64,000 bases of DNA from a virus. Below are positions 2,995-7,451 of the stretch, one piece after another. The translations under genes and the position numbers were made by a program. The notes beneath the pieces were generated by a model, which saw only the letters and a list, made by a program, of their open reading frames with translations, searched no databases and was not told the DNA's origin. How positions within the stretch are numbered: position 1 is the stretch's first letter; every line of letters begins with the position of its first letter. Location: positions 1 through 64,000 of IMG/VR virus record IMGVR_UViG_3300005095_000015. One strand, given 5' to 3'.

Positions 2995-3243
2995 ATGAAA
3001 GTAGCGCTAAGGCTTAAAGTGAAGTGTTGTAACTGCCTGAATAGCTATTTCCGACTCCGAGGCAAGTACTATGATTGTGTGGATGGTATATGTGTTCTTT
3101 GTGGAGAGCCGAAAGAGTTAGGTGATATTCTTGCAGATCTTTTGAGTGAGGGTGTTTTAAAATCGGTGGAAGTTCTTGGCATGGCTTATACTCTAGATTC
3201 TTTTGCGGAGCTGGAGGCTCAGGGTGGGCAAGAAAGGAAATAA
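2995..3243 (+). CDS. Small zinc-finger-like protein (82 aa)
   Basis: Two Cys pairs, CCNC near residue 11 and CVLC near residue 34, with a further Cys between them, suggest a zinc-binding fold. The C-terminal half is helical. The gene overlaps the start of the downstream nuclease gene, so the two are probably translationally coupled. I do not recognise a specific family. Confidence 0.5.
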   Translation: MKVALRLKVKCCNCLNSYFRLRGKYYDCVDGICVLCGEPKELGDILADLLSEGVLKSVEVLGMAYTLDSFAELEAQGGQERK

Positions 3244-3775
3244 AGGAAAGGGTAAACACAAAGGCTCTCAATTTGAGAGGGATGTCTGTAGAATCTTAAC
3301 CAAATGGGTTACTGGCAAGGAAGATCCAGTTATCTTTTGGCGCACTGCTGGTAGTGGTTCTCAATTTACGGTTAAGAAAGGTGAGTCCCCTATGTGCGGA
3401 GACATTATGGCAGTTGATCCAAGAGGTGAGCCTTTTATAGATTATTTTTGTGTTGAGTGTAAAAATTGGAGAAGAATACCTATAATGGCATTCCTTACAG
3501 GACAAGAAGTTGGTTTGCTTAAGGAGTGGTGGGAAGAGCTTGTAGGTAAATGTAGTTGGGCAGACAAGAAACCTCTTTTAATATTCAAAGAAAATTATCA
3601 ACCTATTTATGCTCTTATGCAGACTTCTGAGTTTTTCGAGTTGTCTGACTGGGTAGGTAAACCCGAGAGATATTTTCAGGTCAAGTTACCTTGGGTTGAT
3701 GGAGTGCTTATGGCTTTGGTTGAGTTTTTGGATTGGGTTGATATTGGTATATTTGAGCAACTTAGAAAGGAGTGA
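3224..3775 (+). CDS. PD-(D/E)xK nuclease, Holliday-junction-resolvase-like
   Basis: This is a putative DNA endonuclease. The basic N-terminus precedes FERD (first acidic residue), a GDIM motif (catalytic Asp) and VECKNW (the ExK core of PD-(D/E)xK nucleases), in the order and spacing seen in Hjc-like and RecB-like phage nucleases. I chose GTG 3224 because GGAGG lies about 8 bases upstream, inside the previous gene. A TTG at 3203 would add seven residues but has no good site. It lies between the recombinase and Rad50/Mre11 genes, which supports a role in processing recombination intermediates. Resolvase and structure-specific nuclease are both open. Confidence 0.6.
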   Translation: MGKKGNKGKGKHKGSQFERDVCRILTKWVTGKEDPVIFWRTAGSGSQFTVKKGESPMCGDIMAVDPRGEPFIDYFCVECKNWRRIPIMAFLTGQEVGLLKEWWEELVGKCSWADKKPLLIFKENYQPIYALMQTSEFFELSDWVGKPERYFQVKLPWVDGVLMALVEFLDWVDIGIFEQLRKE

Positions 3776-3827: not shown

Positions 3828-4934
3828 ATGATTAGAAAAATTACGATTGAAAACTTTCAATCCCATAAGCATACTGAGGTAGAGTTCTGTCCCGGTGTAA
3901 ATGTTATTACCGGACGCTCCGATTCAGGTAAGAGTTCAATTCTCAGAGCTTTGCAATGGGTTTTATGGAACCGTCCAACAGGCTTTGCTTTCCATTCTTA
4001 CTTTGCTAAGAAGGAACCTACTAAGGTAAAGGTTGAGTTTGATGATGGTTCTGTAATAGAGAGGATAAAGAGCAGTAGAGAGAACAAATACATAGTTAAC
4101 GGAGTAGAGCTTAAGGCGCTTGGCTCTCAGGTACCCGAAGAGGTTTTGCAGACACATAAATTAGAAGATTTTAATCTACAAACACAATTTGAAAACTATT
4201 TCTTACTTCAGGATTCTCCGGGTGAGGTTGCAAGGAAACTTAACAAAGTAGTAGGGCTTGATATTATTGACGAGTTGGTTAAGCGTGCTAATAGTTATGT
4301 AAATTCATTTCGTTCTCAGATTTCCGAATCGGATATTCGCATAGAGGAGCTACAAAAGGAAATAGAAGGTTATTGCTATTTAGACGAGATAGAACCTTTA
4401 CTTGTTCAAGTTGATGACTATTTGCATGAGCTTGAGCAGTTAGAGAGCGAATTAGATGAGCTTAAGCAGTTGGTAACGGATTTGGAAGAGTTGGAGAGAA
4501 TGCTTGCAGAGTTTGTTGATATTGAGACTTTAGAAGAGAAGTTACAACAGTTAGAGTCTTTGGAATGTGAATTACAGCAAGTTACGGAAGAACTTACAAG
4601 ACTCAGCGGTGTAGTGAGGGAGATCGAGTTAGTCGAGCAGGAGTTGCTGGAGTTTGAAGAGTTTGGAGACTTTGCTGAATTAGAAGAGGAGATGGATGAG
4701 ATTCTTTCGTTAGTAGAGAGGATACAGAAAATAGAGGAAAAGTTGGAAGGGTTGCAGGGTTGGGTTGAGGATTGGTTAGATGTAAGTGCTTTGTTGAATC
4801 GAGCAGATGAGTTACTTAGGGATTATGTTGGGGAGTATTTGGAGTCGATAGAGACTGCTGGTGTTTGTCCTGTATGCAAGTCTTCTATTACTAAGGATTG
4901 TATCGAGGAGATTAAGGAGGAGCTTTTATCATGA
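3828..4934 (+). CDS. Rad50/SbcC-like ATPase, N-terminal half ending at the zinc hook
   Basis: This 368-aa protein is the first half of a Rad50 (T4 gp46-type) ATPase, which works with Mre11 to process DNA ends. Walker A GRSDSGKSS is at residues 29-37 and a Q-loop-like LQTQFENYFLLQD near residue 120. A Leu/Glu-rich coiled coil follows, at roughly residues 150-330. The zinc hook CPVC (Cys347, Cys350) lies 19 residues before the stop. There is no signature motif, Walker B or returning coil here; those are encoded separately at 6834-7451. I chose ATG 3828 because TAGGAGGG lies 7 bases upstream. An in-frame start at 3792 falls inside promoter P1. The stop overlaps the Mre11 start by 4 bases. Confidence 0.85.
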   Translation: MIRKITIENFQSHKHTEVEFCPGVNVITGRSDSGKSSILRALQWVLWNRPTGFAFHSYFAKKEPTKVKVEFDDGSVIERIKSSRENKYIVNGVELKALGSQVPEEVLQTHKLEDFNLQTQFENYFLLQDSPGEVARKLNKVVGLDIIDELVKRANSYVNSFRSQISESDIRIEELQKEIEGYCYLDEIEPLLVQVDDYLHELEQLESELDELKQLVTDLEELERMLAEFVDIETLEEKLQQLESLECELQQVTEELTRLSGVVREIELVEQELLEFEEFGDFAELEEEMDEILSLVERIQKIEEKLEGLQGWVEDWLDVSALLNRADELLRDYVGEYLESIETAGVCPVCKSSITKDCIEEIKEELLS

Positions 4935-5830
4935 AAATCCTTTGCTTTGGAGACATTCACCTACGCTACCGTAAACCTGAGAACAGACTTGATGATTATT
5001 TCGAAACTCAGTTCAAGAAGTTACGCTGGGCTTTTGACTTAGCGGTAAAGGAAAAATGCAAGGTTGTAATCATGCCCGGTGATGTCTTTGATACAGCTAC
5101 AGCAAGCTATGCTGTTACAAGCAGGTTTATGTTTGAGCTTTACAAGTATCGTAAGGAGTTCAGGGTTTTAGCTGTTTATGGACAGCATGATTTACGGTTT
5201 CACAGCACTCAAAGGGAAAACACACCACTTTATGCGGTGGCTTCAGCGGGGCTGATTCACATTCTAAGTTCTAAACCTTTTACCTTATTCGGTTGCAACT
5301 TTTACGGGGCTTCTTGGGAAGAGGAGATTCCAAAGGTTGAAACTCAGAGTCCTAATGTCTTAGTGACACACAGAATGGTTATCAAGGACGAAAAGCTTTG
5401 GTCGACCCAGGACGAGTTTGAGACTTCTTATCAGTTGCTTAGGCGGACTAAGTTTGACCTGATCGTTTGTGGTGACAATCATACTTTCTTTGTAGATAAT
5501 TACGAGGGTAGGTGGTTGGTAAATTGCGGTTCTTTATGCAGAATGAAGGTAGACCAGGTTGGACATAAACCAGCAGTCGTTATTTATGATACGAAGACAA
5601 GAGAAGCTAAGATTCATTACATTCCCGTAGAACCGGCTGAAAAAGTACTTAATCTAAAGGTTTATGAGAAGAAGGAGAAAGATTTGGCAATAGAGGCTTT
5701 TGTAGAGTCTTTGTCAAGCGCTGAAGAAGTAAGTTTGGATTTTCTTTCTAACTTATGGGCTTATGTGGAGAAAAACAAAGTGGAGCAGGGTGTGGTTGAT
5801 GCTTTGAAGGAAATGTTGAGGGAGGAGTGA
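4931..5830 (+). CDS. Mre11/SbcD-like nuclease (T4 gp47-type)
   Basis: This 299-aa metallophosphoesterase is the nuclease partner of Rad50. The motifs appear in order: GDIHL near residue 7, GDVFD near 50, GQHD near 83 (GNHD in most relatives), THR near 149 and GDNH near 182. Together they form the two-metal active site. The length is close to T4 gp47. The ATG overlaps the Rad50 N-half stop, with GGAGGAG upstream, so the two are coupled and probably made in equal amounts. The C-terminal 60 residues are helical and would be expected to contact Rad50. Confidence 0.87.
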   Translation: MKILCFGDIHLRYRKPENRLDDYFETQFKKLRWAFDLAVKEKCKVVIMPGDVFDTATASYAVTSRFMFELYKYRKEFRVLAVYGQHDLRFHSTQRENTPLYAVASAGLIHILSSKPFTLFGCNFYGASWEEEIPKVETQSPNVLVTHRMVIKDEKLWSTQDEFETSYQLLRRTKFDLIVCGDNHTFFVDNYEGRWLVNCGSLCRMKVDQVGHKPAVVIYDTKTREAKIHYIPVEPAEKVLNLKVYEKKEKDLAIEAFVESLSSAEEVSLDFLSNLWAYVEKNKVEQGVVDALKEMLREE

Positions 5831-5831
5831 T

Positions 5832-6299
5832 ATGGCTGCAGTAATAACTAAAGTTGAAGAGTACAACACACTCGAAAGATGGTATCCGATTGCGTCTCAA
5901 GTCGCTCTTCTTTGTTGTTTAGGCTCTTGTTTAGGACTGACTGATTATACGGAAGACAAAAGAATGATCGAAAGAGATACGAAGGCTTTTAGGGAGGGCG
6001 GTAAGTGGTACAGGGTTACTGTGAAGGCAGATAATGTTCAAGACGATGCTGTGGCTTTGGCTTTTTGGCTGAGGGAGATGTACGAGAAGTATTCAGAGCT
6101 TGAATTTTGGCTGATTATGCATGATAAGATTGATTCTCGAACCAGATGGTACGAGATAGCCACTACCCCTAAAGATTACAAGTTAGACGCATCCAGGATG
6201 GTAGCTTATTGTAAGGAGTGTGGTGTTTTTGTTCCTTTGAGAGATGTTGGTGAGAATTGCCCTAAGTGCGGAAGACCTTTTAGGTATGGATGGATGTGA
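5832..6299 (+). CDS. Hypothetical protein with C-terminal zinc ribbon (155 aa)
   Basis: The gene starts 1 base after the Mre11 stop. The C-terminal 25 residues hold CKEC and CPKCG, a zinc ribbon. The N-terminal part is mixed alpha/beta with a CCLGSC cluster. The family is unknown. It sits between the Mre11 and Rad50 C-half genes, so it may associate with that complex, but only its position suggests this. Confidence 0.55.
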   Translation: MAAVITKVEEYNTLERWYPIASQVALLCCLGSCLGLTDYTEDKRMIERDTKAFREGGKWYRVTVKADNVQDDAVALAFWLREMYEKYSELEFWLIMHDKIDSRTRWYEIATTPKDYKLDASRMVAYCKECGVFVPLRDVGENCPKCGRPFRYGWM

Positions 6300-6325
6300 T
6301 GGTTTATAAATTTGGGGGCGATGCA

Positions 6326-6598
6326 ATGATACTTGAGCTAAGAAAAGGCAGGCCTACCGAGTCTGGAATTTACTTAGTGTTCTATGGCAGGTGGGAGTCT
6401 ATTCACGGGCATTTTGATGAGTTTATTATTTACAGAGGTGTGGTTACTTGTTTTTCGGATAGATTCTATGAAACGAACGGTGGTTCTGAGCATAGGTATT
6501 TGAATTCTGACGATTTTCTTATACTTGCTCATGTCAGGTTGCCTTCGGATAAAGAATTGTCTGAATGGTTACAAGGCTATGAAGGGGGTGTAGAATGA
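6326..6598 (+). CDS. DUF551-like small protein
   Basis: The 90-aa product begins MILELRKGRPTESGIYLV, which resembles small phage DUF551-type proteins (a W/P-rich, G-x-Y-L-V-rich fold). The start was placed at ATG 6326 because the similarity begins there and GGGGGCG lies upstream. In-frame ATGs at 6290 and 6299 would add only a few unlike residues. The stop overlaps the next ATG by 4 bases. Function is unknown. Confidence 0.5.
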   Translation: MILELRKGRPTESGIYLVFYGRWESIHGHFDEFIIYRGVVTCFSDRFYETNGGSEHRYLNSDDFLILAHVRLPSDKELSEWLQGYEGGVE

Positions 6599-6834
6599 AA
6601 GAAGTCTTAAGTGAACTCAACAGTCTTAGACGCAAAATTGAGAAAATGAAAGCAGAGAAGGCAAAGCTTGAGGGCAGAAAAGCTGAGCTTCTGAAAAGGC
6701 TTGAGGAGTTCGGTGTTAAGTCGCCAGATCAGGCTAAGAAGAGGATTTCAGTGTTAGAGAGAAAGGCTGAGAGCTTAAGGGAAGAGATTGAGGAGAGGTT
6801 GGAAGAGTTAAGGCAGAAGCTGGGAGGTTATTAA
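6595..6834 (+). CDS. Short coiled-coil protein next to the Rad50 C-half
   Basis: Nearly all 79 residues form a charged heptad-like helix (K/E/L/R), with one break near GVKSPDQ. That break resembles a coiled-coil turn, giving two helices of about 35 residues. It overlaps both neighbours by 1-4 bases. Because the Rad50 C-half has only about 60 residues of coil and the N-half about 180, this protein could supply missing coil, but that is inference. Confidence 0.55.
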   Translation: MKEVLSELNSLRRKIEKMKAEKAKLEGRKAELLKRLEEFGVKSPDQAKKRISVLERKAESLREEIEERLEELRQKLGGY

Positions 6835-7451
6835 TGAGTTTGCAAGCGGAATTTAGTCAGTTAAAGTCCAGATTTCTTGAGTTGAAAGCAAGAAGAGACT
6901 TACTTAAAGAACAACTTGAAAAGGAAAAACAGAGAAAACAGGAGCTTGAAACCAAACACGAAAACTTTACCAAAGCTCGTTCTATAATCCAAGAAGTAGC
7001 AAGGCAAACCCAATCTAAACTTGAGCTTAGAGTATCTTCTCTTGTTACCACGGCCTTATCAGCAGTCTTTCCTGATCCTTACAAGTTCGAAACTGAGTTC
7101 GTTACGAAGCGTAATAAGACGGAATGTGAGTTTTGGTTTACAAAAAGTAAAGAGAAGATGAAGCCTCTTGACTCCTCAGGCGGGGGTCCTATAGATGTAG
7201 CTTCTTTTGCATTGAGACTTGTCTTTTGGTCATTGAGGAAGACTCGTCCAGTTCTTGTCCTTGATGAAACCTTCAGGTTCGTTTCTATGGATCTGCAGTA
7301 TAAGTGCAGTGAAATGCTCAAGATGTTGTCAGAAAAGCTCGGTGTTCAAATTATACTTGTATCTCACTCTCCTGAAATTATACAATCAGCAGATAAGGTG
7401 TTTAGAGTAGAAAATAGAAATGGTGTGAGTTATGTTGAGGAGGTGCAATAG
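6834..7451 (+). CDS. Rad50/SbcC-like ATPase, C-terminal half
   Basis: This 205-aa protein holds the second half of the Rad50 ATPase head. Residues 1-65 are coiled coil. The signature segment DSSGGGPIDVASF is near residues 113-125, Walker B is PVLVLDE at 139-145, and the switch histidine is in ILVSHSPE (His178). There is no Walker A and no zinc hook. Alone it cannot bind and hydrolyse ATP; it needs the N-half encoded at 3828-4934. It starts at the stop of the coiled-coil gene (GGGAGG upstream). Four genes separate the two halves. Confidence 0.85.
   Translation: MSLQAEFSQLKSRFLELKARRDLLKEQLEKEKQRKQELETKHENFTKARSIIQEVARQTQSKLELRVSSLVTTALSAVFPDPYKFETEFVTKRNKTECEFWFTKSKEKMKPLDSSGGGPIDVASFALRLVFWSLRKTRPVLVLDETFRFVSMDLQYKCSEMLKMLSEKLGVQIILVSHSPEIIQSADKVFRVENRNGVSYVEEVQ

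Follow-up and report, generated by a model that had tools for sequence, protein, structure and literature searches.

Can a Rad50 protein be assembled from several separate chains? The question is raised by a recombination cluster in a viral DNA of 64,000 nucleotides (the window, meaning this whole stretch), which covers positions 1 to 64,000 of the 95,675-base IMG/VR virus record IMGVR_UViG_3300005095_000015. In this cluster, Rad50 is encoded on the plus strand by two genes. The N-half (N; 3828..4934) has 368 amino acids (aa), with a Walker A lobe, a long helical arm and a CPVC motif near its C-terminus. The C-half (C; 6834..7451) has 205 aa, with a short coil, an ATP-binding cassette (ABC) signature, Walker B and an H-loop. 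Between the halves lie four genes, which encode an Mre11/SbcD-like phosphoesterase, two small proteins of 155 and 102 aa, and a 79-aa coiled-coil protein, here named S. N, S, C and the phosphoesterase probably form an Mre11-Rad50 complex of the SbcCD type, acting in DNA-end processing, with a Rad50 made of the three chains N, S and C. As judged from sequence comparison, the split at the zinc hook is conserved and old and is not a frameshift.

Two halves of Rad50 and the point of division

The sequence motifs of the two halves are those of the Rad50/SbcC lobes, with Walker A in the N-lobe and the signature, Walker B and H-loop in the C-lobe. We take the following motifs to be these elements. 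In N, Walker A (GRSDSGKS, residues 29-36; 3912..3935) has G29, D32, G34 and K35 invariant in 68 aligned N-halves, as are C347 and C350 of the zinc-hook CPVC (residues 347-350; 4866..4877), which stands 18 residues before the stop. In C, which contains SGGGPIDVASFALRL, LVLDET and VSHSP, conservation was read from five diverse C-halves. Invariant among them are G116, G117, L127 and R128 of the signature region (GGGPIDVASFALRL and its flank, residues 114-128; 7173..7217), D144 and E145 of Walker B (VLVLDE; 7248..7268) and the H-loop histidine H178 (7365..7367). The N-half is counted from the ATG at 3828; the mechanical open reading frame (ORF) opens 12 codons earlier, at GTG 3792. On re-checking the sequence, the gene coordinates and motifs given by the first-pass annotation proved correct.

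Database comparisons point to the same identity. N matched the Pfam family AAA_23 (E 1e-20) and PHROG 16465 (E 2.7e-40), and C matched SMC_N (E 1e-4) and PHROG 15167 (E 1.9e-34). Against all solved chains, Rad50 was the first match of an N profile of 23 rows (E 1.4e-13), and Pyrococcus furiosus Rad50 was the first match of a C profile of 12 rows (E 2.9e-13). When nine proteins were scanned with NCBIfam, all Rad50, SbcC and SbcD models scored well below their curated cut-offs, as is expected because the chains are split or short. A structure predicted for the window N from 68 sequences contained the Rad50 lobe (mean predicted local distance difference test score, pLDDT, 87.7; predicted template modelling score, pTM, 0.40), and its first fold match was lobe I of P. 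furiosus Mre11-Rad50 (E 1.1e-6). The predicted arm is formed by helices 144-180, 185-278 and 283-344, beyond which come the hook and residues 356-367 as a short helix. Given the low pTM, the direction of the arm is not fixed. The coil of N is long, as had been noted earlier, and the predicted structure gives it about 200 residues in place of the earlier estimate of about 180.

Is the division peculiar to this virus? The first-pass annotation had proposed to look for the same split in related phages, and it was found there and also in prophages and bacterial chromosomes; among uncultured viruses and genomes it proved common. Profile scans supplied the best 80 of 466 relatives in viral contigs (A6), the best 80 of 84 in genome contigs (A7) and the best 80 of 89 in a third search (A2), and further scans of viral contigs supplied 69 (A8) and 67 (A7); these scans overlap one another. 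A C-half was present in 57 of the 80 A2 loci, and in the other 23 none was found within the DNA stretch examined. As a single-protein query, the window C-half found no relative (38 patterns scanned). Pooling gave 355 C loci (L008-L395), which reduced to 274 distinct ones, 198 viral and 76 bacterial; distinctness was judged on the last 140 aa of C only, so near-identical relatives remain. The C ORFs of L008, L009 and some others continue past the contig end.

Across these 274 distinct relatives, no ORF joined N to C, and in no locus did lobes and hook share one polypeptide. N was found in 255 loci, with 245 complete ORFs. In 240 of these, a CxxC motif lies 2-32 residues (median 10) before the stop, and 227 of the 240 have the form CPxC. 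The five exceptions are a fusion (L030), a degenerate hook (L143), an in-frame HNH-like tail (L144) and two loci where N is broken and its second piece keeps the terminal hook (L199, L334). Mre11 is present in 264 of the 274 loci. Since the lobes, the hook and the partner are those of Rad50/SbcC but the single chain is missing, the system is classed as a Rad50 variant. In L144 (423-2015), the HNH-like domain follows directly and in frame past the N hook, which is how the insertion of a homing nuclease at the gene's end would look.

The split form also occurs in named phages. A tblastn search with the window C against 50,697 phage records returned five records, which represent four phages: Bacillus phage vB_BboS-125 (two records), Microbacterium phage Magritte, Tunturiibacter phage Tunturi_5 and an uncultured jumbo phage. 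The genes of vB_BboS-125 are ordered N (471 aa, with CPLC near its end), an AP2 protein, S (78 aa), C and an unannotated Mre11, and those of the uncultured jumbo phage are ordered N, Mre11, S, a clamp-like gene and C. The first 20 kb of the window gave no megablast match to phages.

A small coiled-coil protein and the order of the genes

What is the protein that precedes C? In the window, S (6595..6834, plus strand) is predicted to consist of a helix, a conserved turn (EFGVKSPDQAKK) and a second helix. The same design recurs in all groups, with two helices, the first of about 35-45 residues, joined by a turn of the EFGVKSxxEA or LGVKPEEL type. S was present in 270 of the 274 loci: 263 were detected by hidden Markov models (HMMs), one is fused (L030) and six were recognized by eye as S-like ORFs (L066, L383, L391, L392, L394, L395). 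Of the remaining HMM misses, three have the S region cut by the contig edge (L197, L263, L370) and one has no S (L247). When the first 15,363 ORFs were searched with two S HMMs at E<1e-3, 134 and 137 real proteins matched against 1 and 0 reversed ones, and at E 1e-6 neither model matched any of the 15,363 reversed ORFs. Because matches are so rare in reversed proteins, coiled-coil composition does not account for them. In a predicted fold of an N-S read-through (L230), S appears as helices 442-483 and 488-512 with moderate confidence (mean pLDDT 72.5).

The relative order of the three Rad50 genes is fixed. In the 245 loci with all four genes, the order is N-Mre11-S-C in 132, Mre11-N-S-C in 59 and N-S-C-Mre11 in 54; the position of Mre11 shifts, and N, S and C keep their sequence in all 245. 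In the window, stops and starts overlap at ATGA 4931-4934 (N and Mre11), ATGA 6595-6598 (the 102-aa gene and S) and TAATG 6832-6836 (S and C). Natural fusions were also found. Mre11 is fused to N in eight distinct ORFs of 707-805 aa (L030, L343, L352, L353, L382, L386, L391, L392; L030 and L377 are the same contig), and seven of the eight terminate just past the hook. The exception is L030, in which the hook continues straight into an S-like segment (S1 model, E 1.6e-5, whole protein) and C is separate. A scan with this fusion as query recovered only L030 itself. No fusion of C to any other protein was seen among the ORFs examined. The fusion of L353 stands on a 218,948-base record, and the first BFVD match, A7KV18, has 769 aa, equal to the length of that fusion.

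The suggestion that a third chain is built into the arm, made when the window was first read, gains support from the near-universal presence of S, the invariant order and the hook-S fusion. S as arm material is favoured because of the N-S-C order and the fusion in L030.

Assembly of the complex and competing explanations

From sequence we infer how the chains would assemble, their stoichiometry, the placement of S and a nuclease activity. The Walker A lobe is on N, whose ascending arm ends just past half of a zinc hook; the CPxC motifs of two N chains would bring them together as a dimer. C carries the base of the descending arm besides the signature and Walker B, and it would complete the ABC ATPase by docking lobe-to-lobe on N. 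S would sit in the arm between the hook and the C-lobe, replacing part of the descending coil. The C-terminal helical domain of Mre11 would bind the base of the arm, and DNA ends would be cut under ATP control. In long-armed forms, the N arm may in part pack against itself.

Several observations weigh against such a three-chain arm. The lengths of the N arm, S and the C coil are mismatched. S has 75-129 aa, and the N arm varies about threefold by a rough measure from motif positions. S is thus too short to make up the entire descending arm of the long forms. These arm lengths are crude, and over-long ORF starts raise some C values; a correlation of 0.65 between N arm and C coil was discarded as evidence, being driven by two related clusters. 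S showed no detectable homology to the one canonical SbcC tested, which was compared as its longest piece of 768 aa. No S was found alongside the C-halves of Tunturi_5 and Magritte, and the N of Magritte lacks a CxxC. Finally, one C-half, in a Victivallales genome (L247:5944-6585), stands alone: neither N nor S nor Mre11 was found within 6 kb of it.

Could S instead be an accessory protein? It is rather unlikely, though worth serious consideration, that N and C alone form a split Rad50 with Mre11 and that S is a regulator, a chaperone or a DNA-end adaptor on the arm or head. The length of S does not track that of the N arm (Spearman 0.14, p 0.05), a clamp-like gene separates S from C in jumbo-phage loci, and two predicted helices joined by a turn would suit a hairpin clip no less than a strand of the arm. 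The invariance of the N-S-C order, the overlap of the S stop with the C start in the window and the hook-S fusion of L030 argue for the three-chain arm and against an accessory. More distant is an architectural complex, condensin-like or coalescin-like, in which the phosphoesterase is a loosely linked neighbour and DNA ends are not cut. This is quite improbable, since Mre11 accompanies nearly every locus, since eight distinct proteins combine it with N in one chain, and since Rad50 ranks above SMC in the PDB search for both N and C. What speaks for it is that the best NCBIfam match of the window N is ASRP, the SMC-related family specific to archaea, whose members have a zinc hook and, in the portion of the source available, are described without mention of Mre11 (PMC9389158); this match falls far below its cut-off (E 1e-25; 90.5 bits against 300 bits). 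That an ordinary Rad50 was split by a recent frameshift, an assembly error or pseudogene decay has a negligible probability. Broken N genes do occur in a few relatives (L199, L334), but four genes separate the halves in the window, and 240 of the 245 complete N ORFs, drawn from unrelated assemblies, phages and chromosomes, share the break point. A close relative with a single-chain Rad50 and signs of a recent frameshift at the hook, which the first-pass annotation had named as the observation that would overturn its reading, was looked for, and none was present among the 274 distinct relatives.

How does the three-chain form compare with known systems? Archaeal Mre11-Rad50 (P. furiosus, Methanocaldococcus jannaschii; PDB 1f2t, 1ii8, 3qkr, 3aux, 9a9j) shares the ABC lobes I and II, the CPxC hook and the Mre11 partner, and gives the best sequence matches of N and C and the best fold match of N, but it has no S. 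Archaeal Rad50 is naturally a single chain, and the halves seen in crystals are engineered. The solved lobes have been deposited as separate chains (for example 1f2t_A, 149 aa, and 1f2t_B, 148 aa), which shows that lobes are able to associate without a covalent arm. Phages T4 (gp46/gp47) and T5 (D12/D13) encode an Mre11-Rad50 pair in which the Rad50 subunit is a single chain. Bacterial SbcCD (TIGR00618) has the same type of partner and probably the same role, but SbcC is a single chain of about 1030-1160 aa.

By sequence, the nearest named single-chain relatives are ASRP and mad3. ASRP, coalescin ClsN and Sph (NF045487) are short SMC-like ATPases with a zinc hook, as in N, but are single-chain; the window N falls outside ASRP by its score, and the window C was absent from the matches of the ASRP model at E<0.01. 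The mad3 protein of MADS defence (PADLOC) is matched by N (E 9e-18) and by C (E 8e-15), and differs in being one chain, with a profile of 374 positions and a far shorter arm. A known anti-phage defence system was considered and rejected, as PADLOC gave only partial matches to the ATPase lobes and no match for the S of L218. N-type and C-type phage proteins are already contained in PHROG 16465 ('exonuclease') and PHROG 15167 ('ATPase'); the library text seen links neither family to the other or to S, and the names do not refer to a split Rad50. SbcC/SbcD homologues have been described as practically universal in jumbo phages, with no split mentioned in the parts of that article consulted (PMC7824862). 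Under the terms searched, the text accessed of the vB_BboS-125 genome paper contained no SbcC, Rad50 or split (PMC6375668). No description of a three-chain Rad50 was found in the literature, in a search largely confined to sources other than subscription papers and preprints.

A bolder proposal, which is possible but somewhat doubtful, is that these loci represent an undescribed branch of Mre11-Rad50: a permanently three-chain Rad50 with a universal third subunit, of single origin, spread through phages and the chromosomes of Firmicutes, replacing SbcCD beside recA in some bacteria, and with an arm that can be opened or exchanged. If so, hook, arm and head would reside on different chains, and the arm could be opened or exchanged without a break in a polypeptide. 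DNA entry, or uncoupling of hook and head, would become possible in ways that are closed to a one-chain Rad50.

It has long been asked how the arm and hook of Rad50 communicate with its ATPase head, and a one-chain Rad50 can be taken apart only by truncation. With the protein divided at the hook, N, S, C and Mre11 would offer loose parts that could be mixed, omitted or swapped between species. On the three-chain reading, phage homologues now labelled 'exonuclease', 'ATPase' or 'hypothetical protein' belong to one machine.

Chromosomal loci and neighbouring genes

The split set is carried on the chromosome of some Bacilli and Clostridia, often adjoining recA. In Shouchella clausii, Alkalihalophilus pseudofirmus and Peptoniphilus, the genes are recA, Mre11, N, S, C and an RNase Y-like gene (genes named from their sequence). 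By a motif test, 37 of the 80 genome loci (the best 80 of 84) have recA as a neighbour, and in each of seven loci examined from split-positive genomes recA is followed by Mre11, N and two ORFs, the first of C size and the second of RNase Y size. A tree built from the concatenated lobes of 109 representatives (midpoint-rooted, without outgroup) grouped 27 bacterial sequences, all 14 linked to recA among them, in one clade with support 0.83, apart from viral and prophage sequences. A phage-only oddity is ruled out by the chromosomal recA loci.

Does the split form stand in for SbcCD in these bacteria? In 120 genomes of one order (that of G001), C-half matches of E 1.5e-57 or better occurred in eight, and those in the other 112 were of E 3e-10 or weaker, mostly to SMC- or RecN-sized ORFs. 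Canonical SbcC was absent from six of the eight split genomes and from 8 of the 112 without the split (Fisher p 2e-5, uncorrected for relatedness); absence was called with TIGR00618 at E 1e-15, scoring the first 8 or 12 candidates per genome. Two genomes (G014, G101) have the split set and canonical SbcC together. Among 12 genomes originally chosen for the split (G001 is counted in both sets), 11 lack SbcC, and the twelfth, Paenibacillus, has SbcC together with a prophage-like split set. In Firmicutes with the chromosomal set, the three-part Rad50 probably takes the place of SbcCD. Whether it does the same job becomes a question for in vivo work in the bacteria that seem to lack the canonical enzyme.

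The remaining genes of the window cluster lie around the two halves. A single-strand binding protein-like gene (516-1604; PHROGs match), RecA (1687-2736; Pfam match) and a PDDEXK nuclease (3203-3775; Pfam match) precede N, the nuclease being its immediate neighbour. The Mre11/SbcD-like phosphoesterase (4931..5830, plus strand; 299 aa) matches Metallophos (E 1.5e-11) and the SbcD-like PHROG 100 (E 7e-24). Between it and S are the genes for the 155-aa zinc-ribbon-like protein (5832-6299), which ends in a zinc-ribbon-like CxxC pair, and for the 102-aa protein (6290-6598); neither has a convincing family in Pfam or PHROGs.

Some minor features of the loci were also observed. The Mre11 metal motifs G(N/Q)HD and G(H/D)xH covary: in 194 proteins, of which five could not be read, the pair was N/H in 122, Q/D in 48, N/D in 19 and Q/H in none. 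Q thus occurs only together with D, and the window Mre11 is of the Q/D type by eye. In Magritte (L002, L005), N and C are about 93 kb apart in the linear record, a split form without a hook. In L006, L075, L086 and similar jumbo-phage loci, two genes, read from their sequence as sliding-clamp-like and PD-(D/E)XK-like, lie in a fixed arrangement between Mre11 and C.

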